This document shows, piece by piece, positions 1 through 12,133 of a DNA stretch of 64,000 nucleotides. Within the stretch, counting starts at the first letter, position 1. The number at the start of each line of letters is the position of its first letter. Position numbers and translations under genes: made by a program. The notes under the pieces were generated by a model. It had not been told where the DNA came from and searched no databases. It saw only the letters and a list, made by a program, of their open reading frames with translations. The stretch spans positions 3,469,501 to 3,533,500 of the forward strand of contig NZ_CP080025.1 of NCBI RefSeq assembly GCF_020463795.1, written 5' to 3'. The stretch is from Echinicola marina. GTDB lineage: Bacteria; Bacteroidota; Bacteroidia; Cytophagales; Cyclobacteriaceae.

Positions 1-534
1 CAGCCGGACAGTCAAGATATATTCACTACCAATAGTTGTGAATTGCTTTCAGAATTGTACCTTGTACGGGTAATCACAGCTCTGCCTCAAAAAGGAAATT
101 TCTCTCTTAAGTTGTGAATTGCTTTCAGAATTGTACCTTGTACGGGTAATCACAGCCGCGAGCTTATGGGGCAGTACAGATGAAGAGTTGTGAATTGCTT
201 TCAGAATTGTACCTTGTACGGGTAATCACAGCAACGGCCATTTTGCGCTTAGCATGAACAATGTTGTGAATTGCTTTCAGAATTGTACCTTGTACGGGTA
301 ATCACAGCCATGGTTCTGTTCTTAGAATATGTGAACTGTTGTGAATTGCTTTCAGAATTGTACCTTGTACGGGTAATCACAGCACCTTTGAACATTTCGG
401 TAAACATTTGCTGGTTGTGAATTGCTTTCAGAATTGTACCTTGTACGGGTAATCACAGCAATTAATCATACATAGGTTTTACAACTTTGTTGTGAATTGC
501 TTTCAGAATTGTACCTTGTACGGGTAATCACAGC
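1..534 (+). CRISPR. Type II-C CRISPR array (right-hand end)
   Basis: Seven complete, identical 46-nt repeats start at 35, 111, 187, 263, 338, 414 and 489; bases 1-4 are the tail of an eighth. Each repeat begins GTTGTGAATTGCTTTCAG and ends GGGTAATCACAGC. Spacers are 29-30 nt. The repeat contains an internal GTAC-CTT-GTAC palindrome. The first 20 nt are complementary to two tracrRNA-like genes at 7067 and 7811. Because the tracrRNA pairs with the GTTGTG end, the crRNA should be read from the plus strand, so the array converges on the cas genes and the leader probably lies outside the window to the left. The array continues beyond the window edge. Confidence 0.98.
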
Positions 535-569
535 ATACCCCGGTATAACCGGTTGGTATGCTGTTTTTT
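535..569 (+). terminator. Terminator at the end of the CRISPR array
   Basis: Immediately after the last repeat, ATACCCCGGT (535-544) can pair with ACCGGTTGGTAT (548-559), with a 2-nt bulge and a 3-nt loop. A run of six T follows at 564-569. This fits a Rho-independent stop for the plus-strand pre-crRNA and supports the inferred direction of array transcription. Confidence 0.7.
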
Positions 570-765
570 ATGTGCGTTTTTTGAATTAAAAAATCAGCCT
601 GTTTTTGTTGATGAAGTTGGGGAGGGGATGAAGTTTTTGTTTTTCAAATTTATTTGAATGGAGAAAGTCTGTAAGGGAATTGGGGTGTGCTGCCTAGAGG
701 AGGGGACTCTTTTTTTATTTTATCCAGCGTCTGGAGACGGGAGGATAACCGTATAGAAGCTTTTA

Positions 766-798
766 AACTTTTCCAAAGTTTAGAACTTTGGAAAAGTT
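766..798. repeat. REP-like palindrome downstream of cas2
   Basis: A perfect inverted repeat with 15-bp arms AACTTTTCCAAAGTT and a TAG loop. The same arm sequence is found inside the RAYT transposase gene at 2421-2453, so this is probably a REP mobilised by that transposase family. It lies just past the cas2 stop and could also act as a transcript end. The rest of 570-811 holds only a small hairpin around 721-748 (CGTCT/AGACG) and no gene. Confidence 0.75.
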
Positions 799-811
799 GG
801 ATAGTATTACT

Positions 812-2045
<1,234 letters not shown>

Positions 2046-2065
2046 TTTGATTAGGTTTGGGTTTA

Positions 2066-2653
2066 TCAATTATCCATTTCCAAGTTTTTATTTAAGATGG
2101 ACTCCCTTTTTATCTCCATCATATCATTTACATGGGACATACCATCAAAGAAATTCATATAATAGGTCCGCTCCAACAGCGACTTCTTTTCCAAATGTTT
2201 ATAAGCATGCCAGCTTGACCATTTCCAATCGATTACTGATGTAGAAAAACCGTGTTTTACTGGGTTGAGGTGGATATAGAGGAAGGTTTCCTGCCATTGG
2301 GACGCTGTCAGGATGGGTTTTCTTTTGAAGTTTTTTAGGAATAGACTTCCTTTTCGCTCATATACTTTATTAAAAGATTGGGTATACGAACTGAAGAAGT
2401 TGGAGAACTGTTTGCTAACTAACTTTTCCAAAGTTTCAAACTTTGGAAAAGTTTTCTCCAATTCTTCCTTTGACCTAACCCCAAGCAAAAAATGGAAATG
2501 GTTTGGTAATAAACAATATGCACAAGTATCTACCACATCCCCCAAATATTTAGCATACTGCTGCATGAAAAAACGATAGTTTTCCTCCTCCCGGAAAATA
2601 TCCTCCGAGCCATTGGCGTGGTTGTAGATATGATAGCTTTGACCTGGTTCCAT
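2066..2653 (-). CDS. REP-associated tyrosine transposase (RAYT, Y1_Tnp)
   Basis: Single-strand HUH transposase of the TnpA_REP family, which cuts and joins at REP palindromes. The 195-aa protein has the HUH pair H52/H54 in LLPNHFHFLLG and the candidate catalytic Y127 in FLYIHLNPVKHGF, plus the family signature FNKVYERKGSLF. It lies in the same direction between cas9 and cas1, so it is embedded in the cas operon. Residues about 67-78 (EKTFPKFETLEK) are encoded by a 33-bp perfect palindrome (2421-2453) identical in its arms to one at 766-798. That suggests a REP was accommodated in frame inside its own transposase, in a segment between the HUH motif and the tyrosine. There is no sign of a frameshift, so it may be active. 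Confidence 0.9.
   Translation of the reverse strand: MEPGQSYHIYNHANGSEDIFREEENYRFFMQQYAKYLGDVVDTCAYCLLPNHFHFLLGVRSKEELEKTFPKFETLEKLVSKQFSNFFSSYTQSFNKVYERKGSLFLKNFKRKPILTASQWQETFLYIHLNPVKHGFSTSVIDWKWSSWHAYKHLEKKSLLERTYYMNFFDGMSHVNDMMEIKRESILNKNLEMDN
2421..2453. repeat. REP-like palindrome inside the RAYT gene
   Basis: A perfect inverted repeat with 16-bp arms AACTTTTCCAAAGTTT and a 1-nt centre. It is 33 bp long, exactly eleven codons, and keeps the RAYT frame open. It shares 15-bp arms with the copy at 766-798. Confidence 0.8.
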
Positions 2654-2680
2654 AAGCTTGATTTGCTGGTTAATGTGTTC

Positions 2681-2713
2681 AAACCGGTCAGGTCTTCCAG
2701 ACCTGACCGGTTT
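2681..2713. repeat. Second-type REP palindrome upstream of the RAYT gene
   Basis: A perfect inverted repeat with 15-bp arms AAACCGGTCAGGTCT and a TCC loop. It lies 28 bp upstream of the RAYT start codon, the usual place for a REP next to its transposase. Its arms resemble those of the imperfect palindrome at 2870-2900 (a CCTGNCAGG-type core). Confidence 0.75.
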
Positions 2714-2746
2714 AGGTTTTAGTTTCTCATAATTTCTTCATAGACC

Positions 2747-2848
2747 TTAGCAGGTGTCGGTTAATACTTCTTTTAGGAAATTACTCTGTGAGCCAATGGT
2801 ATGGTTGCTCCAATAGTTATCAGCGTGGTAGGATTGATCTTGTTCCAT
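2747..2848 (-). pseudogene. Probable remnant of a second RAYT gene (N-terminus)
   Basis: A 33-codon reading frame starts MEQDQSYHADNYWSNHTIGS. It aligns with the start of the neighbouring RAYT (MEPGQSYHIYNHANGSEDIF) at ME, QSYH, a central N and GS, and then decays. It lies between the two REP-like palindromes at 2681 and 2870. I read it as the eroded 5' end of a duplicated transposase gene. The match is short, so this is a tentative call. Confidence 0.45.
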
Positions 2849-2869
2849 ATGGTAAGCAGTTAAGTTTTT

Positions 2870-2900
2870 AAATCTGTTGGGTTTAAAGCCTGACAGGTTT
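2870..2900. repeat. Imperfect REP-like palindrome at the cas9 3' end
   Basis: AAATCTGTTGGGTTT (2870-2884) faces AAGCCTGACAGGTTT (2886-2900). The arms pair throughout if G-T pairs are allowed. It ends 6 bp before the cas9 stop codon and could serve as a transcript end or a transposon scar. Confidence 0.55.
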
Positions 2901-2905
2901 TATAG

Positions 2906-5900
2906 TTAGAATTTAAATCTTATTTGACCATCTAGCCCCATTTCAAAATCTTTATCCTCAATTATGAAATTAAAATTCCCTGGACTTAGTAACAGTCTAG
3001 GAGCTACAAAAGCAGCTGAAAATTTAGAGAAACCATTAATCCCCTTCTTCCCGCATTTTGTGCCAGTGATTGGGTCAATCATGGTCTCAGGGAAGTCTAT
3101 TGATAATTGCTTGTCATCTCTCCCCTCTAAATGATGTTGGAACTGAATATTTCCTCTACTCGCCTGATAAAGCCTTCTTACATAGTATAAATGATTTGAT
3201 AAGTTGACCTTATCTTTTAATTCATATTTGTTCTCCTCAAAGAAGAGAACTTTTTGGCCTGGTCTAAATACATGATGAAGAAAAAATTCCTTCCCTTTTG
3301 CGTTAAAAATTTTACTTTCAAACAATTCCTTTAAGTTTTTAATAGAGTTTAGGTTATCAAAAGATGCAGTTTGAAATAGGTTTAAAGAAATTATAGATCT
3401 ATTCCCTTCCTCATTAACATAATATCCAAATGCAAAATTCTCAGAGTTTTTAGCATAATAATAATTCTTATAGACTTTGGATGATTTATAAGTTTGTTCC
3501 TTGATTTCCATTGGATCAACAGATTGCCAAACTCTTACTCTCCTGATTTTATTTACGACTTTTCCATTTTTATCTAACATATATAAACCCTCAGATATGG
3601 CTTTCTTTAATGGTCTTCCATCTAATTGGTTTTCAATTATTTTAGCTAATTCTGGATTTACTATTGAATTTAAATCTGAAAGGGATTCAATAGGTACTCT
3701 TAAAACAAATTTGAATTCTTCCTTACCTTTTTTAAATTTCCACTGACCAAATTCATTTCTTAATGGCTTACCACTTTCATCTCTTTCAACAATTCTAATC
3801 TTACCGTAGAAAGTATCCAAATGTAATTGCCCCCTAACTGAATCACCTTGTTTGATCATTGGTACTTTTTTACCCTTTTCATTCAGAATGAATTTTCCTT
3901 CATTATCTCTTTTCCAAACTACTCTACCTCTCTTTCTAACTAGCTTTTTACCTGGTGAAAAAGCTTGATCTTTATTTGGTACATTGTTAACTAATATATT
4001 CTGCTTGATTTCATCCAACATAGAATTGCTATATCCTTCAAAAGGCTTTATAGGATAGTCTTGAGTTTGATTGTTTTCTGAGTATTCAAAATACTTTTTC
4101 AAGATAGCTTCTCTCTCAGCAGCCTTAGGAATTAGTGTTAAGACCGCGGCATCTATGGCGTGATGATAGTGTTTCCCTCTATCCTTAACTTCTTCTTTAG
4201 ACTGAATCCCATAAATTTTTCTAAAAAGTGACGTTACTGTTCCCTTTTGTACATCTACCTTATTAAAGACAGTCTTGAGGTAATGAAATGCATATTTTGA
4301 AATGATTTGGCTATCAATCAACTGACTATTTTTAAACCCGGCAGGCACATCGGTTCGTGTAAATCGATCGAGCTTATTTTTCCAATAATCATACTCCATT
4401 TGAAGCATGTGTCTCTTACGAATAGCGTCATCTTTTTGGGCTTTATCCATCGCACTTTTTGATCTGGATTTAGCTGCCTCAATTTGCTTGAAAAGAGATT
4501 CAACTCTTTTCTCCCAATCTACAAGCTGGGGCCTAATAGCCTTACCTTCAGAAGTATCCTTTTCATAATTTGGCAACTCTACAGGCAAGTAGTTCTTCTT
4601 TACATTCCGATTGTAATGAGCATAGCAAACAGTCAGGTTTGCAAGTGAATTGTCAAAAGATTTACTTCTTGGGATAGTATGCTCGAAGTCGATCACATTT
4701 TTATCAAAAAGAGTAGTGAATGGAATCACTTTTCCTGTGTACATACACTTACAGCCTTGTTCCTTCCATAATCTGTATCTTTTAACATCGTCTTTGGTGG
4801 CAAATATTTCCTTCCAAAACTCATTGGGATTAGTTGCTTGCTCTGTCCACAGCCTTAATTTATCTCTGTCCGTTTGATTATCTGGATCTGCACTTCCTTT
4901 GAAGTCAGGATCTTTCAACAATTGTGAAATGGCAAAGGCAATTTCGCGATTTTCATTTTCTCTGTTTCTTTGATATGATTCTATAGCCCATCTTTTATTA
5001 GCATCATTAAGCTCTCGGGCTATCTCAACAACAACCCTAGTATCCTCATCAATTTCACCTATTTCGAGTAGGTTGTTTATCACGCGCCTTAATTCAAAAA
5101 GTGTTTTGTAAGCCATTGGGTTTTTAAATGCACCTGTTTTGGGACTTGGTAAATAAATATTCCCATCCTTTAACCGTTTTGCAGGAGGATAAATATCTAT
5201 TTGAGAAGGATGATACAGCTTGGAAATGGATTTTTCTTCAATATGAAATTCATCTGCAAGGACTTCCTTAATCTGATCAAGCAAATGTGGTGAGGAAAAA
5301 TGTTTCCTGTCTTTTGAATTAAAAAATCCCTGATAATACTGCTTAACTTTGTGAGTGTAATAATCCTTTTCCGACTCTTTCTCCCAAGATTCTTTGCCGA
5401 AATGATTTTCTATAGCATTTTCAATATCTTTTATATCATCTTGGTCTATCATATAGGCCGGATTCCGGAACCCTTGCTTATAATCAGAAAGGTGATAATC
5501 GGAAATCAGCTTATTGACTATGGTCACGACCTTCTTCTCCTTTCTGTTGATTTCAATCGTAGCTTTTATCCTTTCTTTTATGAAATCTTGATGTAGGTTA
5601 AATTTTTCCTTTCCTATAACTTCAGGAATTTTGGCAAGTAAAACCGCTTCAGTGTATATCAACCCTTCTTTTAAAAAGGGTAAAATATTATTGATTGCTT
5701 TTAAACTCAGCGAAGCATACCCAACTGGGAAAGAATTCCAAAGAGTTTTAATCTCCTTAACTTGATTTTCATCTAAATCGAAGTTGATGATTAAAAATTC
5801 CTCTAGCAACTCTTCATCTTCATAGGAGAACAAAATATGCCAAATATCATTTAAAGTATAAGTAATGGTTTTAGGCTTACCATATTTTTTAATAGATTTA

Positions 5901-7039
5901 GAAATCGCAATGTTTTTCCAATCTTCTCCAAAAACTGACTTTAACCGTGCGGAAACAGGACAAGCTGGAACAGTTGTTTCATCTTTATAATTAAGCTTCC
6001 ATTTTTTACTTGTAATCTTTTGCAAATGTTTTGTGATTTGAGAAAACTTGAAATCATTTTTTCCTTTTAGAAAAAACTTTTCCTTAAAAAGAGCAGATTT
6101 CAGTTCTAGAGATAAACTTTCCATTTTACCAGTTTCAGAATCGAAATACTTGATATTATTCAAAAAACTCCAAGCCCTAAATTCTTCAAAAGCTGGGTGG
6201 CTGATAGGACATTTAGGCTTTTGTGGTTCTAAGGTACATTTACCAACAAGCCCTTTCTGCGATCTTAGAGGCCGTTGGAAAAATATAGCTTTTTTAACAG
6301 GGATAGTAAAATTCTCGTCATTTAAGCCTTGGACATTACAAATTAGGTCAACCTCTCTTTCATAATCACTCCTTAGGGTATACCTATTTCTAATTCGTTT
6401 TCCTAAGTCTTCAAGATGAGCAAAAGCAGCACCTAAAGATTTATGGTCTATCAATAACTGCTCATACTCATTTCTTCCAATTGTACCAGTTTCCGAACTT
6501 CCTTTGTAAATCGCCACCTTTTCGTTTACACCATTTTTTCTACTACTTTTAAAGCCTCTCCTTTGTGCGATATGAAATAAAGCTCTGCCTATTTTGTGTT
6601 TATTTTCCTTGATTGATAAATCAAGTGTGTTGTTGATCAGTTCCCTTCTTAATTGATATGGACTGGAATAATCAGGCTTTCCATCTCTATCAAAATCAAG
6701 TTTTATCCATGACTGAAATAGGTCATCATCAACAGGATAAACTCTCCCTTTTCCTTTAGCATAATATTTCCAATGATTAAGCTTTTCTAAACTCAAGGGA
6801 CAAAAACCATTTTGGATCAAAAATTCCAAAGTTGCCCATTTCCTGTATCTTCTTGAGTTATACAATCTTCTAGATGATCTATTTGAAGTCCTCTCTGCTG
6901 CGTATGAATATTCTCCTGATTTTCCTTCTCCAACACCTTTTTTGAAAGTGTAAACACCGTACCAAGGAAACGCTCTCCCTTCTCTTAAGGTGGCACCAAT
7001 AGAATTTGTGCCTAAATCAATACCTAAAATCTTTTCCAT
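2906..7039 (-). CDS. cas9: Type II-C CRISPR nuclease Cas9
   Basis: RNA-guided DNA endonuclease of 1377 aa. RuvC-I is at the N-terminus (D8 in ILGIDLGTNSIG). An arginine-rich bridge helix spans about 50-68. RuvC-II has E672 in VVVEIAREL, HNH has D784/H787 in DFEHTIPRSKSFDNS, and RuvC-III has H960 and D963 in YHHAIDAAV. All nuclease residues are therefore present. The KKGVGEGKSGE segment near residue 35 followed by AAER-NRS-RRLYN marks the Bacteroidetes lineage with this N-terminal arrangement. Oddly, the usual tryptophan after SIG (SIGWA) is replaced: SIGATLREG. The first gene of the cas operon, it is divergent from the tracrRNA-like gene at 7067. A 51-codon remnant of a different Cas9 lies just upstream. 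Confidence 0.97.
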   Translation of the reverse strand: MEKILGIDLGTNSIGATLREGRAFPWYGVYTFKKGVGEGKSGEYSYAAERTSNRSSRRLYNSRRYRKWATLEFLIQNGFCPLSLEKLNHWKYYAKGKGRVYPVDDDLFQSWIKLDFDRDGKPDYSSPYQLRRELINNTLDLSIKENKHKIGRALFHIAQRRGFKSSRKNGVNEKVAIYKGSSETGTIGRNEYEQLLIDHKSLGAAFAHLEDLGKRIRNRYTLRSDYEREVDLICNVQGLNDENFTIPVKKAIFFQRPLRSQKGLVGKCTLEPQKPKCPISHPAFEEFRAWSFLNNIKYFDSETGKMESLSLELKSALFKEKFFLKGKNDFKFSQITKHLQKITSKKWKLNYKDETTVPACPVSARLKSVFGEDWKNIAISKSIKKYGKPKTITYTLNDIWHILFSYEDEELLEEFLIINFDLDENQVKEIKTLWNSFPVGYASLSLKAINNILPFLKEGLIYTEAVLLAKIPEVIGKEKFNLHQDFIKERIKATIEINRKEKKVVTIVNKLISDYHLSDYKQGFRNPAYMIDQDDIKDIENAIENHFGKESWEKESEKDYYTHKVKQYYQGFFNSKDRKHFSSPHLLDQIKEVLADEFHIEEKSISKLYHPSQIDIYPPAKRLKDGNIYLPSPKTGAFKNPMAYKTLFELRRVINNLLEIGEIDEDTRVVVEIARELNDANKRWAIESYQRNRENENREIAFAISQLLKDPDFKGSADPDNQTDRDKLRLWTEQATNPNEFWKEIFATKDDVKRYRLWKEQGCKCMYTGKVIPFTTLFDKNVIDFEHTIPRSKSFDNSLANLTVCYAHYNRNVKKNYLPVELPNYEKDTSEGKAIRPQLVDWEKRVESLFKQIEAAKSRSKSAMDKAQKDDAIRKRHMLQMEYDYWKNKLDRFTRTDVPAGFKNSQLIDSQIISKYAFHYLKTVFNKVDVQKGTVTSLFRKIYGIQSKEEVKDRGKHYHHAIDAAVLTLIPKAAEREAILKKYFEYSENNQTQDYPIKPFEGYSNSMLDEIKQNILVNNVPNKDQAFSPGKKLVRKRGRVVWKRDNEGKFILNEKGKKVPMIKQGDSVRGQLHLDTFYGKIRIVERDESGKPLRNEFGQWKFKKGKEEFKFVLRVPIESLSDLNSIVNPELAKIIENQLDGRPLKKAISEGLYMLDKNGKVVNKIRRVRVWQSVDPMEIKEQTYKSSKVYKNYYYAKNSENFAFGYYVNEEGNRSIISLNLFQTASFDNLNSIKNLKELFESKIFNAKGKEFFLHHVFRPGQKVLFFEENKYELKDKVNLSNHLYYVRRLYQASRGNIQFQHHLEGRDDKQLSIDFPETMIDPITGTKCGKKGINGFSKFSAAFVAPRLLLSPGNFNFIIEDKDFEMGLDGQIRFKF

Positions 7040-7066
7040 ATTAAAATTTTATTTGTATTTTTGTTT

Positions 7067-7140
7067 TTCTGAAAGACAATTCACAACAAGGCTATAAGCC
7101 GAAGAAATTCTTAATCCCGCGTACTCCGTGGGATTTCCTG
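7067..7140 (+). ncRNA. tracrRNA-like gene A, next to cas9
   Basis: TTCTGAAAG-A-CAATTCACAAC (7067-7087) is the reverse complement of the first 20 nt of the CRISPR repeat, with one inserted A. It is followed by a short nexus-like hairpin GGCT-ATA-AGCC (7090-7100) and a 9-bp stem AATCCCGCG/CGTGGGATT (7113-7121/7127-7135), then TTTCC. A possible -7 box TATTTTTG lies at 7056-7063. It is divergent from cas9 and its 3' stem overlaps the end of the Cas9 remnant. The poor U-tract makes the exact 3' end uncertain. The anti-repeat match makes a tracrRNA role likely. Confidence 0.8.
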
Positions 7141-7266
7141 TTTCTCTCCACCATTTCCTTCTCTATCTTCCATTTTCAGTTTACCACACTTTTCTTGAAA
7201 GTCTTTCTCAACCAAAGCCCACCCAATTGAGTTTGTTCCTAAATCCAGTCCTAATATCCTTTTCAT
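7111..7266 (-). pseudogene. Remnant of a second cas9 (N-terminal RuvC-I only)
   Basis: A 51-codon frame starts MKRILGLDLGTNSIGWALVE and runs into unrelated sequence ending at a TAA inside tracrRNA gene A. The first 20 residues are the canonical RuvC-I segment of Bacteroidetes II-C Cas9, including the catalytic aspartate and the tryptophan that the complete Cas9 lacks. After that (KDFQEKCGKLKMEDREGN) the sequence does not match the neighbouring Cas9, so this is the stump of a different Cas9 lineage rather than a recent duplicate. Its ATG is 2 nt after the stop of the HIRAN gene, as in an intact operon. It is too short to encode a nuclease. Confidence 0.85.
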
Positions 7267-7267
7267 A

Positions 7268-7774
7268 TTATCTTACTTTTATATCATAAAAATTATTGCT
7301 TCTATAAATATCATCTACCTTATCTGCTGGTAGTTCATTGAGTTTTTCTGATGTGGCGGCATTGGAATTGATGATTATTTCTGTCCAAATCCCAATGCTG
7401 ACTTCATAGATAGAGCCTTTTGAAGTGATCATTCCTTCTAGTTTTCCACCGGCATCCATCAGGTTGGCCAAGACAATGTTTTCATAGGCCGGTAAATAGC
7501 CCAAGAAATATTTCTCCCATTCCACCCCAATGGCAAAGCGATCGTATTTATGATCTGCAAATCTCTTTAGACCTACTTTATCTCCTGGCTTTATCAGTTT
7601 CATGCATTTACCCAAATCATAATATTGTACTCCTTTGATATAGTTGTCATAAATTTTTATTGACTGGGAGAGTAAATGGGGATTATAGTTTGGCTGAGCG
7701 GCCAGTGGAGGGAGTATTAGGTTGGCACTTCCTAGACCGATGACCTTTAAAAATTCTTTTCTGTCTATTTTCAT
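7268..7774 (-). CDS. HIRAN-domain protein with N-terminal signal-like segment
   Basis: HIRAN domains bind DNA ends or are found with DNA-processing enzymes. Here the C-terminal two thirds of the 168-aa product carry the pattern LIKPGDKVGLKRFADHKYDRFAI followed by LGYLPAYENIVLANLMDAGG, which I recognise as HIRAN. I chose the ATG at 7774 (MKIDRKEFLKVIGLGSANL). The RKEFLK plus hydrophobic stretch ending LPPLAAQ resembles a weak Tat-type signal, which would place the protein outside the cytoplasm; this is unusual for a DNA-binding domain. It lies between two tracrRNA-like genes, directly upstream of the Cas9 remnant. A functional link to CRISPR is not shown. Confidence 0.75.
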   Translation of the reverse strand: MKIDRKEFLKVIGLGSANLILPPLAAQPNYNPHLLSQSIKIYDNYIKGVQYYDLGKCMKLIKPGDKVGLKRFADHKYDRFAIGVEWEKYFLGYLPAYENIVLANLMDAGGKLEGMITSKGSIYEVSIGIWTEIIINSNAATSEKLNELPADKVDDIYRSNNFYDIKVR

Positions 7775-7810
7775 ATAATGCTTTGGTTTTTTATGCAGAT
7801 CATGTCTATT

Positions 7811-7890
7811 TCTGACCTGAAAACAATTCACAATAAGGATTATTCCGTTGTGAAAACATTTAGTGCCTCGACTATCTTCGGGGCTTTTTT
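7811..7890 (+). ncRNA. tracrRNA-like gene B
   Basis: CTGAAAACAATTCACAAT (7817-7834) is the reverse complement of the first part of the CRISPR repeat except for one mismatch and one G-U-type change. It is followed by AAGGATTATTCCG with a small GGA/TCC hairpin (7837-7846) and GTTGTGAAAACA, a layout I associate with tracrRNAs of classical Bacteroidetes II-C loci. A 7-bp stem GCCTCGA/TCGGGGC (7865-7871/7878-7884) and six T (7885-7890) then give a convincing terminator. Structurally this is the better tracrRNA of the two. It probably belonged to the lost Cas9 whose remnant lies at 7111. Confidence 0.78.
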
Positions 7891-8673
7891 ATTTTCTGTT
7901 TTTTTGAATACGCCTAACCTGGAATTTGGATCCAAGAAAATTCCGGGGCAACTGTACTTTTTGAAATAGAAGCTTGACTGTTTAGTGCTAAGATCAATGA
8001 GATTAACTTTATGCATTAAGAAATACTTTGCCCCAAAAATGAAATTAAAGTATTCGTGGTCGTTCAATTTTATCAGTGGTCCAAAGTTACTTCGCTTGAA
8101 ACAGTCAAAAATCATAAGCAAAACAGGAAGTCTAATAGTTAAAAGAATTGGCATTTTAGGTATCAGTGTGTGGAATGAGGAAAATAGTTTTATATTTTAT
8201 TCACAACTAAAATAGTAATTAAAAAGCGGAGAAGAAATACCTTAATTATGGTATTTTTTGATGTTAATATCGTTTTTTAGGAAATAAACTAGCCAAATAA
8301 GGCAATAACTTATAAATGGTTCTTGGTGAAAAGAACTAATAAAGTGACTGAAGGGTGTACTAACCGAATAGCTGGGATAGGAATAATTAGAGAGGACTAT
8401 TTTTATTAAGATTGATCAATTCTGTATACAAGTACAAATCACGAGCTTTATCCTTATTTCATATACAGTCCATAGTGATTCCAAAATAAATCATCCCGTC
8501 GATAGCTTTTCAAGCAGTCCTTATTTGAACCTGTAAAATTGTAATTAAACGTCCAACAGTTTCCTGTCTCATTGATGGTTCTGCCTAGGTGGTTCGGTCT
8601 ATTCTGCCTGTTTCTGTTTATTCCGGCTTTGGTCTGTCTTGACCTTGGTTAGAGGGAAAACAGAATATTCTTT

Positions 8674-8728
8674 GGATCACTCAGGGATCACCTTCGGATC
8701 TCCTTTGGATTACCCTCGGAAAATTCCG
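8674..8728. repeat. 11-bp tandem repeat
   Basis: Five consecutive 11-bp units, each starting GGA, with consensus GGATCACCTTC. The first four are close copies and the fifth (GGAAAATTCCG) is degenerate. The unit is not a multiple of three and there is no gene here. Confidence 0.75.
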
Positions 8729-8923
8729 AGTGAAATCCGAAGATAATTTGGGAGAAAAGCATGTTTGATCCAAAAGAAAGTAAATTGGGCAATAGATATA
8801 TGTGAGGATAATTGCAGGGAGGTAGTAGGGGGGCTTGTAGATTGGTGGTGTTTTCACTAGGTCTTTCGTATTCTTCAAACAGTCAAAGAAGCATGTCAAG
8901 TTGCGCTAAAAAGTGATTGTTTT

Positions 8924-8980
8924 AATCAAAACTATAGTTTTGATTCGCTTATAACCTATACTGGTGAAATTACTGATATA
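8924..8980. repeat. Palindrome plus dispersed 39-bp sequence, copy 1
   Basis: AATCAAAACTA (8924-8934) is followed directly by its reverse complement to 8945, a 22-bp perfect palindrome. The adjoining 8942-8980, GATTCGCTT...GATATA, matches 42429-42467 at about 33 of 39 positions. Further downstream both places share AAACAGGCCT and a CGGGAAA block, so a longer degraded element may be present. Confidence 0.55.
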
Positions 8981-9136
8981 GCTACTAGAAAATATTGTTC
9001 TGAAAACAGGCCTTTTCTTAGCGCCTAACAACCACAAGACAGAGCAGTTTATACTTTCCGGGAAACTTGGACGAGGACATCATCTTTTTTGTCTGCAATG
9101 GAGTCAAAATTTCATAAAGGGCTATTTAGCATTGGG

Positions 9137-10021
9137 CTAACTTGCCCGGTGATGTTTTTGGGTATGGGTTTTTATATATTGGGAAGGGGTATAGCCTGTG
9201 ATGGATTTAAACTGCCTGTTGAAATAGGAAATATTGTAATATCCGCTATCAAAAGCTACTTCTTTTACACTGTATCCTTCTTCTATCAGTTGTTTGCAGG
9301 CATGACCAATACGAATTTCATTAAGGAACTGGGAAAAGGTTTTCCTGGTGTGCTGCTTGAAGAAGCGGCAAAAGGCATTGACACTCAGGTTGGCCACATT
9401 GGCAACTTCAGCGAGGGTGATGTCCTTGGAGAAGTTATCCATAATGAAGTTAATGACGGTATTGACTTTTTTGGTATCGGTGGGTTTAGGTTCATGGTCA
9501 AAATTAATATGGCTTAAGGCCATCAGTTCATTGCTTCTGGATAATTTATGCAGCTGTTTTAGGAGATAGATCAGTCTTTCTATGCCTTTTTTATGCAGCA
9601 TTTTATTGGCGGATTGATACAATTTGGTGCGGGCATTACCTTGGACCATCAGGCCCCTTTTACTGTAGTGCAGTAGTTGTTTGATGGCATAAAACTCGGG
9701 AAGTTCCAAGAATTTTTCGCCCAGACTTTCCAAAGAGAAGATGATAGAGATGTTCTTTGATCTTAAATGGGTGTTTTCTTCGTAATAGCTTTTGTCGCTT
9801 CTGAAAAAATGGGGGAGGTTAGAACCCAAAATGAATATATCCCCTGCTTTAAAGTTGCCAATGGCATCCCCCACAAAATAGGTGCCTTCTCCCTCCAAAA
9901 TCACCATGATCTGTGTCTCGGAGTGATAATGCAGGTTGTCATAAAAATACGGGTAATCTTCCTGTAGGATCCTGATGGACTCCTCCTCTGTTTTGGCAAT
10001 TTTAAATAATAAGGGTTTCAT
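9137..10021 (-). CDS. AraC-family transcriptional regulator
   Basis: A 294-aa regulator with an N-terminal cupin sensor domain (HYHSETQIMVILEGEGTYFVGD and the following beta strands, residues about 30-90) and two helix-turn-helix motifs at the C-terminus (ITLAEVANVANLSVNAFCRFFK, then IEEGYSVKEVAFDSGYYNISYFNRQFK). It ends with the usual GYTPSQYIK. Cupin-AraC proteins of this layout usually sense a small sugar or related effector and control nearby catabolic genes. No target is obvious: the next gene, gamma-glutamyltransferase, is divergent across a 369-bp gap. The effector cannot be told from sequence. Confidence 0.93.
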   Translation of the reverse strand: MKPLLFKIAKTEEESIRILQEDYPYFYDNLHYHSETQIMVILEGEGTYFVGDAIGNFKAGDIFILGSNLPHFFRSDKSYYEENTHLRSKNISIIFSLESLGEKFLELPEFYAIKQLLHYSKRGLMVQGNARTKLYQSANKMLHKKGIERLIYLLKQLHKLSRSNELMALSHINFDHEPKPTDTKKVNTVINFIMDNFSKDITLAEVANVANLSVNAFCRFFKQHTRKTFSQFLNEIRIGHACKQLIEEGYSVKEVAFDSGYYNISYFNRQFKSITGYTPSQYIKTHTQKHHRAS

Positions 10022-10390
10022 TTTATTGGGTATTCGAATAATAGCTTAAGTTTACAATAAGGCTAGGAAAATGAAAAATAATTTGTTTGATATTATATTT
10101 AGGAGTGTATTGATGTGTTTTTAGGAGGGGAAAGCTGATTAAACTGACTTATAAAATAGGGCTAATATAGAGGTCCAACAGATAGGTAATGTCTGTTTAA
10201 AAGACAAGGATGGTGCAAATGGTCAAGGTCAAGCACCGCTTTTTGATGATTGATTTGTGAAAGACGATTTCAAACAAGTTAGGTTCCCAAAGGGCTGAAG
10301 GGGAGGGAAGCTTGGAGCAGCTTGAATATTGCGAAGAAGTCGTAACTGTATAAAGATGAATAATTGATCCCATTAAATAACAGTTGATTT
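10022..10390. other. Intergenic region between araC-type gene and ggt
   Basis: A 369-bp divergent spacer that must contain the promoters of both flanking genes. I see no convincing consensus promoter, no terminator and no open frame. Confidence 0.5.
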
Positions 10391-12133
10391 ATGTCCAAGA
10401 AAAGAATTTATAGTCCTAAGCTTAGGTTAGCGCATTTATTGGTCCTAATAATTTCGGTGAGCCAATTTTTAGCCTGTTCAAATTTTGAAAGGAAGAATTA
10501 TAAGGAAGGCAAAACGGTTTTGGCCAATAAAGCCATGGTGGTGAGTGCACATCCTGAGGCCACAAGGGTTGGGGTAGAAGTTTTGGAGAGAGGAGGAAAT
10601 GCGATTGATGCGATGGTGGCAGTGCATTTTGCGCTAGCGGTGGTGTATCCTTCTGCCGGAAATATCGGTGGTGGGGGATTTATGATTTACCGACCGGTGG
10701 AAGGGGAAGTGAGCAGTTTGGATTTTAGGGAAAAGGCTCCACTGTCAGCTTATGAAGAGATGTATCAGGATGAAAACGGTGAGATCATAGACGGGCTCAG
10801 TCTAGCCGGTCCGATGGCTTCAGGCGTGCCTGGTTCTGTGGATGGGATGATTCAGGCTCATAAACGATATGGCTCTATTTCTTTGGAAGAATTGATCGAC
10901 CCGGCTTATAAACTGGCCAAGGAGGGCTTCCCCATTACTGAAAGGCAGGCAAAAAACTATAACAGCTATAAACCTCTATTTATAAAACATAATCGGGACA
11001 GTACCCATATTCCATTGGTAAGGTTGGATAGGGAATGGAAAGAAGGGGATCTACTCGTGCAGGAGGATCTAGCCGAGACTTTGAAAAGGATACAGGAAAA
11101 TGGCCGGGATGGTTTTTATAAAGGAGAAACAGCCGAGCTATTAGTGGCTGAGATGAAAGCAGGAAATGGGATCATATCGTTAGAGGACTTGGAGAAGTAC
11201 GAGGCAAAATGGAGGGCTCCAATTGTGGGGGATTATAGGGGCATCAAGGTTTTCAGTATGGGGCCGCCCAGCAGTGGAGGAATAGCATTGATGCAGTTGT
11301 TGAAAATGTCAGCCCATTTTCCCTTGGGAGATTTGGGCTTTCATCAAGCAGAGACCATTCACTTGATGACAGAAATGGAAAGAAGGGTGTATGCGGACAG
11401 GGCTAAACACTTGGGGGATTCAGATTTTTGGGATGTGCCCAAGGATGATTTGTTGGATGAGGCTTATTTGGAGAGCAGGGTGAAGGAAATCGATACCGCG
11501 CATGCAACCGATAGTGAAGCAGTATTGGCCATGAATTTTGACCATCAGGAAAGTGAAGAGACCACGCATTATTCTATCGTTGATACCAATGGGAATGCTG
11601 TTTCAGTGACCACGACAATTAATTCTGGTTATGGTTCGAAGGTATTTGTTACAGGAGCTGGATTTTTGATGAATAACGAGATGGATGATTTCAGCAGCAA
11701 GCCTGGGGTGCCCAATGTCTACGGCCTGTTAGGGGGAGAGGCAAATGCCATTCAGCCTGAAAAGCGGATGTTAAGTGCCATGACGCCTACGATATTGGAA
11801 AAAGACGGAAAACTAATGATGGTGGTGGGCACGCCTGGTGGCAGTACCATTATTACCTCTGTGTACCAGACCATATTAAATGTGGTAGACCACAGTATGG
11901 ACATGACTGAGGCCATTTCATCAGGAAGAATCCATCATCAATGGAAGCCTAACTTTATTTTTCCAGAGAAGAATGCTATTGATGAAGCAACAAAATCAAT
12001 CTTGGAAGGACTGGGACATGAGATCAAAGAAAGGGGAAATATAGGTAGGGTAGATGCCATTTTGGTCAATGCAGAGGGGTTTTTGGAGGGGGCTGGAGAT
12101 CCTAGGGGAGACGATTGGGCAGCTGGTTTTTAG
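10391..12133 (+). CDS. ggt: Gamma-glutamyltransferase
   Basis: Hydrolyses or transfers the gamma-glutamyl group of glutathione and related peptides; made as a proenzyme that cleaves itself. The 580-aa length is standard. The probable nucleophile is T391, the first threonine of ETTHYSIVD, which becomes the N-terminus of the small subunit. The substrate-binding VGTPGGSTIITSVYQ block follows near residue 478. Earlier markers include GGNAIDAMVA and NIGGGGFMIYR. The N-terminus VLIISVSQFLACSNF is a lipoprotein signal with the cysteine at about 29, so the enzyme should be anchored in the periplasm or outer membrane. It stands alone, with no co-directional neighbour for 250 bp on either side. Confidence 0.96.
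   Translation: MSKKRIYSPKLRLAHLLVLIISVSQFLACSNFERKNYKEGKTVLANKAMVVSAHPEATRVGVEVLERGGNAIDAMVAVHFALAVVYPSAGNIGGGGFMIYRPVEGEVSSLDFREKAPLSAYEEMYQDENGEIIDGLSLAGPMASGVPGSVDGMIQAHKRYGSISLEELIDPAYKLAKEGFPITERQAKNYNSYKPLFIKHNRDSTHIPLVRLDREWKEGDLLVQEDLAETLKRIQENGRDGFYKGETAELLVAEMKAGNGIISLEDLEKYEAKWRAPIVGDYRGIKVFSMGPPSSGGIALMQLLKMSAHFPLGDLGFHQAETIHLMTEMERRVYADRAKHLGDSDFWDVPKDDLLDEAYLESRVKEIDTAHATDSEAVLAMNFDHQESEETTHYSIVDTNGNAVSVTTTINSGYGSKVFVTGAGFLMNNEMDDFSSKPGVPNVYGLLGGEANAIQPEKRMLSAMTPTILEKDGKLMMVVGTPGGSTIITSVYQTILNVVDHSMDMTEAISSGRIHHQWKPNFIFPEKNAIDEATKSILEGLGHEIKERGNIGRVDAILVNAEGFLEGAGDPRGDDWAAGF

Follow-up and report, generated by a model that had tools for sequence, protein, structure and literature searches.

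Type II-C CRISPR-Cas loci combine Cas9 with cas1, cas2 and an array and have neither csn2 nor cas4 in between, and in the Bacteroidota they are laid out as cas9-cas1-cas2 with repeats of 36 or 46 nucleotides (nt) and a divergent trans-activating CRISPR RNA (tracrRNA) gene upstream. The available part of a study of Flavobacterium psychrophilum describes the in-place replacement of Fp1Cas9 by Fp2Cas9 (PMC10309648), and the available part of a second study ties clusters of tracrRNAs to clades of Cas9 (PMC7606464). Here we analyze a type II-C locus of Echinicola marina within a stretch of 64,000 nt (contig NZ_CP080025.1, positions 3,469,501 to 3,533,500; referred to as the window, whose first letter is position 1), in which a single intact cas9 is accompanied by two tracrRNA genes, A and B. 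An earlier note on this DNA had proposed either that Cas9 uses both tracrRNAs or that one of them is left from a replaced Cas9. Our results argue for the latter: the original clade-B Cas9 has very probably been replaced in place by a distant clade-A Cas9 carrying its own tracrRNA A, with B as the leftover, and we reinterpret this odd dual-tracrRNA locus as the scar of an effector replacement.

The two tracrRNA genes and the cas9 stub

The part of the locus that runs from cas9 to B comprises the following features:

2714 to 7188, no strand assigned: putative swapped-in segment (cas9-A and tracrRNA A), with approximate edges set by homology breaks against same-genus clade-B loci
2906 to 7039, minus strand: cas9 of clade A, 1377 amino acids (aa), the sole intact cas9 found in the genome (profile and genome matches)
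7056 to 7063, plus strand: -7-type promoter box TATTTTTG of tracrRNA A, score 6.6
7067 to 7140, plus strand: tracrRNA A, with anti-repeat at 7067 to 7087, nexus AAGGCTATAAGCC, 9-bp stem and weak U-tract; tail type of clade-A Cas9
7186 to 7266, minus strand: 5' stub of cas9-B, the putative replaced gene, MKRILGLDLGTNSIGWALVEKDFQEK..., with no Cas9 frame beyond (homology to clade-B Cas9)
7268 to 7771, minus strand: HIRAN-domain gene with its ATG at 7771 (Pfam HIRAN, E 5e-13)
7805 to 7812, plus strand: apparently decayed -7 box of tracrRNA B, TCTATTTC, which differs from the TATCTTTC of loci L100 and L098 (motif comparison)
7817 to 7893, plus strand: tracrRNA B, most likely an orphan, with anti-repeat at 7817 to 7834 carrying one G-to-A change, core AATAAGGATTATTCCGTTGTGAAAACA, and hairpin plus U6 terminator; tail type of clade-B Cas9

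Both anti-repeats lie where the earlier note had placed them and pair with one and the same partner, the 5' handle of the 46-nt repeat, and its description of the tails as unrelated also holds: A has a GGCT/AGCC nexus and a 9-bp stem, while B has GGA-UUAU-UCC followed by GCCUCGA/UCGGGGC and U6. With nt 1-24 of the repeat, A forms a duplex of -28.0 kcal/mol with one bulged base on the tracrRNA side and B a duplex of -20.5 kcal/mol with one mismatch, and none of 2000 shuffles was as good as either. Both anti-repeats also stood out in the genome-wide search that the note had called for. A scan of the 5.69-Mb genome for the anti-repeat plus AAGG, with up to three mismatches, gave 17 places, namely, 15 in the array on the minus strand, B (no mismatches) and A (two mismatches), and no further copy outside the array; one of the array places (3468065) is a repeat copy split by an insert, and the reversed-pattern control matched once in the genome. 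Genome-wide covariance models, which had the window copies among their training sequences, found A at E 1.8e-17 and B at E 5.7e-12, with the next-best places at E 0.39 for the A model (B itself, at 0.011, aside) and E 0.06 for the B model. Run on the 64-kb window, profiles built without the window copy (and for B also without that of L100) still gave 3.1e-22 for A and 1.9e-18 for B. An Rfam scan of positions 1-12000 of the window at a lax threshold gave eight matches, only weak CRISPR-DR50 and one viral pseudoknot match, with no tracrRNA family among them.

tracrRNA A has the nexus and terminator hairpin typical of its Cas9 clade. The tail of B holds a segment, GTTGTGAA (within 7826 to 7856), that mimics the 5' end of the repeat, can pair with B's own anti-repeat and is kept in all 26 aligned copies. 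Small CRISPR-Cas-associated RNAs (scaRNAs) are repeat-like small RNAs located outside the array; the principal match of B is to the anti-repeat strand, and the repeat-like part is the short segment in its tail.

The tail type follows the Cas9 clade. Loci were gathered by a Cas9-only search, which found 20 of 295 genomes of the family (E <= 1e-20) and 9 of 390 of the order (E <= 1e-100) and was supplemented by five loci from genome contigs, and by a search for the B core only (up to three mismatches), which found 49 of 295 genomes of the family and 26 of 395 of the phylum; the draws overlap, and the neighborhoods of the genomes found by either query were fetched. The resulting Cas9 tree has 94 rows (67 B, 20 A, four A plus B, one A with a B fragment, and two with A-like tails outside the A pattern), after the omission of duplicates (L059 and L062), a fragment (L128), a locus with a frame below 900 aa (L097), and loci lacking a Cas9 frame of at least 600 aa (L043, L064, L065, L096, L113, L133 and L145). 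The B label requires one change on this tree, against a shuffled mean of 23.7. The A pattern was found in 25 of the 27 loci with open clade-A-type Cas9 frames, L018 and L053 having just an A-like tail, and no A tail (up to four substitutions) was found in the 68 loci with clade-B-type Cas9. Two long rows lie outside both main clades: L058, which has an A tail and a Cas9 scoring nearly equally to both types, and L198, which is labeled B but sits beside the A side and whose own tracrRNA has an A-like tail fused to a B body with an anti-repeat remnant only. B thus goes with clade-B Cas9, and the B tail of the window mismatches its resident clade-A Cas9. A search that takes any anti-repeat near cas9 can choose the wrong partner; in this locus, the tail alone distinguishes the two.

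A further line of evidence lies between A and the HIRAN gene. Read on the minus strand, about 27 cas9 codons are followed by 25 residues that are not Cas9-like and a stop. Against a library of 69 clade-B and 29 clade-A Cas9 proteins, the stub matched 60 B and 14 A entries, the best being a clade-B Cas9 with 77% identity over 30 aa, and its DNA is 90% identical over 83 nt to loci of genome G255, of the same genus. Searching the own genome with the Cas9 of L100 (E <= 0.01) returned two stretches of the resident cas9-A and the stub only, the latter with 71% identity over residues 1-31 (E 3.1e-7), and no other Cas9 match was found in the 5.69-Mb genome. Judged by these homologies, the stub represents the beginning of another cas9, unlike the resident one. 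The earlier note mentions neither this stub nor the weak U-tract of A.

The earlier arrangement in relatives

Within the genus, clade-A cas9 was found in 2 of 11 genomes, that of the window and G234, whose copy has one internal stop, and the B core was found in five others (G146, G190, G220, G245 and G255). Locus L100 of G190 has the order tracrRNA B, HIRAN gene, intact clade-B cas9 of 1503 aa, cas1, cas2 and array, and its HIRAN protein is 95% identical to that of the window and stands in the same place. The window and L100 share 96.2% identity over 814 to 2045 (cas1-cas2) and 90.8% over 7195 to 8844 (the partial stub, HIRAN gene, B and beyond), while the stretch from 2045 to 7195 gave no blastn match. 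Homology to G255 spans the RAYT gene (a REP-associated tyrosine transposase, listed below) up to 2713 and restarts at 7189, and it is these breaks that give the swapped piece its approximate edges; homology to the clade-A locus L004 extends to 7125. Beside the seam, 200 nt at 7245 to 7444 are identical to G190 inside a flank of about 91% identity, which is probably a recent recombination tract. The stub, the intact arrangement of L100, the link between tail and clade, and a genome search that returned no further Cas9 match together back the proposal that one tracrRNA was left from a replaced Cas9.

In the mechanism that we propose, the clade-B cas9 of a type II-C locus would have been swapped for a clade-A cas9 together with its upstream tracrRNA A, with one crossover near the cas1 side and the other around codon 27 of the gene being replaced. 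This would have spared tracrRNA B, the HIRAN gene and the 5' end of the old cas9. Such a swap would be workable because A and B loci belonging to one lineage have their repeat handle (GTTGTGAATTGCTTTC...) in common and carry closely related cas1-cas2 genes, only the Cas9-specific tail of the tracrRNA differing between them. Cas9-A would then most likely work with tracrRNA A alone, while B, lacking its Cas9-B partner, would be an orphan whose promoter is being lost and whose pairing with CRISPR RNA (crRNA) is weakening.

The HIRAN gene stayed in the window despite the change of Cas9, and relatives of it were found in the fetched stretches of 5 of 28 A-type and 6 of 68 B-type loci; it is possible that it is an accessory gene of the CRISPR locus. 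No B fossil was found in L004, which has an A tail and an upstream HIRAN gene (best local-alignment scores, 21 of 60, none of them close to that gene). In G255, a clade-B tracrRNA region is present twice in inverted orientation (L096, 7292 and 12739), the copies being 5.4 kb apart and having matching flanks.

The remainder of the locus, from the array to the gene beside cas9, comprises:

35 to 534, plus strand: 3' end of the CRISPR array, 46-nt repeat GTTGTGAATTGCTTTCAGAATTGTACCTTGTACGGGTAATCACAGC, seven copies within the window
812 to 1204, minus strand: cas2, 130 aa (Pfam CRISPR_Cas2, E 1.2e-17)
1152 to 2069, minus strand: cas1, 305 aa (Pfam Cas_Cas1, E 1.9e-28)
2066 to 2653, minus strand: RAYT-like gene in the interval between cas9 and cas1 (NCBIfam NF047646, E 8.3e-18, 64.7 bits, under the cutoff of 80)

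The locus has Cas9, cas1, cas2 and an array with neither csn2 nor cas4 in between, as type II-C requires; the open reading frames of at least 80 aa at 812 to 7039 are cas2, cas1, the RAYT-like gene and cas9, plus small frames on the opposite strand for which no family search was made. The resident Cas9 belongs to the Csn1 family (TIGR01865, 392 bits with a cutoff of 100), and Pfam HNH_4 and RuvC_III exceed their cutoffs. Including the upstream stretch L002, the array has 23 intact repeat copies with at least four insert-split copies ahead of them. The latter lie at the upstream end of the array (L002, 6368 to 6788), where at least four repeats are interrupted by a 49-nt insert at the same site after GTTGTGAATTGCTTTCAG, with a spacing of 125 nt.

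Repeated exchange of cas9 and tracrRNA

The replacement does not stand by itself. On a Cas1 tree of 90 of the loci (26 A and 64 B by best-scoring Cas9 type), the A/B label requires 18 changes (bootstrap, 18-18), 17 of them being forced by supported branches, and 3 of 500 shuffles were as low (shuffled mean, 22.7). These switches of label imply that cas9 and its tracrRNA have been exchanged over the adaptation genes, and we read them to mean that the two move as a cassette over common repeats and adaptation genes. The cleanest case is the near-isogenic pair L044 (A) and L127 (B), which are 98.9% identical over 6.9 kb on one side and 95.8% over 1.9 kb on the other, with homology breaking at the tracrRNA terminator and just before a RAYT gene past the cas9 stop. 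The unit of exchange indicated is thus cas9 plus its tracrRNA, in this pair from the tracrRNA terminator to just beyond the cas9 stop. Identical 36-nt repeats are used with clade A (L055, L045/L049) as well as with clade B (L130, L139), and an 18-nt repeat handle is common to the window and L100. Shared spacers were considered as proof that the same array had survived a swap, but this was dropped since none were shared in the three A/B pairs tested. The 17 forced switches on one Cas1 tree amount to natural experiments on what in a guide RNA has to fit the Cas9 (the tail) and what has to fit the array (the anti-repeat).

It was considered that the RAYT gene or its palindromes might drive the swaps. 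RAYT-like genes were found in the fetched stretches of 12 of 28 loci of the clade-A type and 30 of 68 of the clade-B type, proportions that do not clearly differ, and some of these genes lie elsewhere than between cas9 and cas1. REP-like palindromes occur near the RAYT gene at 766 to 798 and 2421 to 2453 of the window. Among plasmid records, three (Phocaeicola, Persicobacter and Prevotella) matched the tracrRNA stretch, in the B part only; no plasmid or phage record covered 80% of the resident Cas9, partial matches being found in 15 plasmid records and one phage record.

Other loci carry comparable scars. A full B tail beyond tracrRNA A was found in 4 of the 24 A-tail loci with at least 2 kb beyond (the window, L052, L146 and L147). 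L049 has a B tail without an anti-repeat directly after the A terminator, a tracrRNA-tracrRNA fusion, and in L003 the first bases of B begin about 35 nt past the A terminator and are cut by the contig end. All six have the same order and orientation, cas9-A-B, and among them a cas9-B stub between A and B was found only in the window, so that in L052, L146, L147, L049 and L003 it is B itself that points to a swap. A 3' cas9-B stub lies between cas9-A and cas1 in L051 (69% over 135 aa, with 27 B and no A matches). In L056, a 5' cas9 stub lies between two tracrRNA genes that both have A-like tails; its clade is unclear, with the best match being L018 of the A side and most matches being to B (59 B, 15 A). 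B tails beside A (4 of 24) contrast with A tails in the clade-B rows of the Cas9 tree (0 of 66; Fisher p 0.004, or 0.016 with 3 of 23 when the window is excluded), an asymmetry that is only a lead, as the loci are related to each other and were gathered by two different queries.

Alternative readings and known systems

How B is to be understood depends largely on its present state in the window. An expectation-maximization search was run on the 42 nt preceding each of 73 B anti-repeats in loci that lack an A tail and gave TATATTTG, which we take to be a Bacteroidetes -7 box from its shape; the seeds included that consensus, and seeds drawn from the sequences converged on the same model. The window B scores 2.3, at the 45th percentile of shuffles and the 4th of the 73, whose median is 6.8; at the usual place it thus has no recognizable promoter box, and some of the 73 contexts are also low. 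The scores are 7.4 for B of both L100 and L098, 6.9 for L101, 4.7 for L099, 6.3 for L147, 3.1 for L052 and -0.2 for L146. A shifted TATTTCTG was considered as the -7 box of the window B and dropped, as the motif model gave it no support. The G-to-A change in the anti-repeat is unique to the window in comparison with five same-genus clade-B loci, and the B duplex is weaker than that of L100 (-27.2 kcal/mol). B is most likely a decaying orphan, which may retain some residual decoy activity.

Several observations speak against replacement followed by decay. The core and terminator of B do not differ from those of L100 in the stretch that begins right behind the anti-repeat change and extends beyond the U-tract, which could reflect continuing constraint; this argument is tempered by the probable origin of most of the divergence between the two before the swap and by the unrelated block without differences at 7245 to 7444 in the same comparison. 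L140 has a -7 score of just 2.4 beside an intact cas9-B, and low scores are likewise found for tracrRNA A in several clade-A loci; a low score by itself is thus no proof of silence. The U-tract of A is broken at 7131 to 7146 (ATTTCCTG; the same-genus A copy in L043 has ATTTTTTTA), and its transcript might read through towards B. The stub agrees exactly with L100 in its first 13 codons but beyond them differs and resembles G255, for which reason L100 is a stand-in for the ancestor. Finally, no spacer is common to the window and L100 (22 and 16 compared), the middle part of the repeat is not the same in the two, and the array need therefore not have survived the swap.

The best-surviving alternative, itself rather improbable, is that B has been retained as a decoy or regulator that would titrate crRNA from Cas9-A; the earlier note had attached a competitor or decoy role to its leftover reading. 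Its intact core and terminator, its recurrence beside A and the well-scoring promoter box of L147 would fit such a role, but neither the window nor L146 has kept the box and that of L052 is weak, the lost box and the weaker duplex in the window speak against strong competition, the copies in L049 and L198 lack a working anti-repeat, and plain leftovers account for every case. The other proposal of the earlier note, a true dual-tracrRNA system in which Cas9-A uses both, gained no support and is highly improbable. That both anti-repeats pair with the repeat, and that B occurs in full beyond A in four loci and cut by the contig end in L003, speaks for it, but B is never the only tracrRNA in the 26 clade-A rows of the Cas9 tree, no A tail was found in the clade-B-type loci, the window B lacks the -7 box common upstream of B, and L049 and L198 have B without an anti-repeat or as a remnant. 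The reverse assignment, with A as the leftover and B as the working partner, could appeal to the stronger terminator of B but is scarcely credible, with the sole intact cas9 being of clade A and directly adjoining A, A keeping its -7 box and the stronger duplex, and the broken cas9 being of clade B by most matches. A chance match of A or B can practically be dismissed given the genome-wide scan, the covariance models, the leave-out profiles, and the 29-nt B core, of which identical copies occur in many genomes across the family and phylum.

Beyond the replacement itself, a wider model can be formulated, which we regard as doubtful: Cas9 and the tracrRNA tail would form an exchangeable cassette on a common handle and adaptation module, and the tracrRNAs orphaned by swaps would persist as crRNA-binding RNAs and damp the new Cas9 until their promoter and anti-repeat have decayed. 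If true, loci of this kind would present a natural conflict of guide RNAs after effector replacement.

A search of titles and abstract openings gave no report of a tracrRNA left by a replaced Cas9, a weak negative because the main papers on tracrRNA and type II evolution lay outside its reach. Compared with Bacteroidota type II-C loci as generally known and as represented by the relatives fetched here, the present locus differs in having a second tracrRNA of the other Cas9 clade and a 5' cas9 stub. Its A/B split is an instance of the association between tracrRNAs and Cas9 clades, although a locus with tracrRNAs of two clusters is not treated in the available part of that work (PMC7606464). As in F. 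psychrophilum, recombination at a fixed place would have put a divergent type II-C cas9 between conserved neighbors, but in the available part of that description cas9 lies between one tracrRNA and cas1 and neither a second tracrRNA nor an adjoining cas9 stub is described (PMC10309648), whereas here both are found. What is added here is the leftover tracrRNA with its cas9 stub, the tracrRNA-tracrRNA fusions, and the count of switches between the two Cas9 clades.
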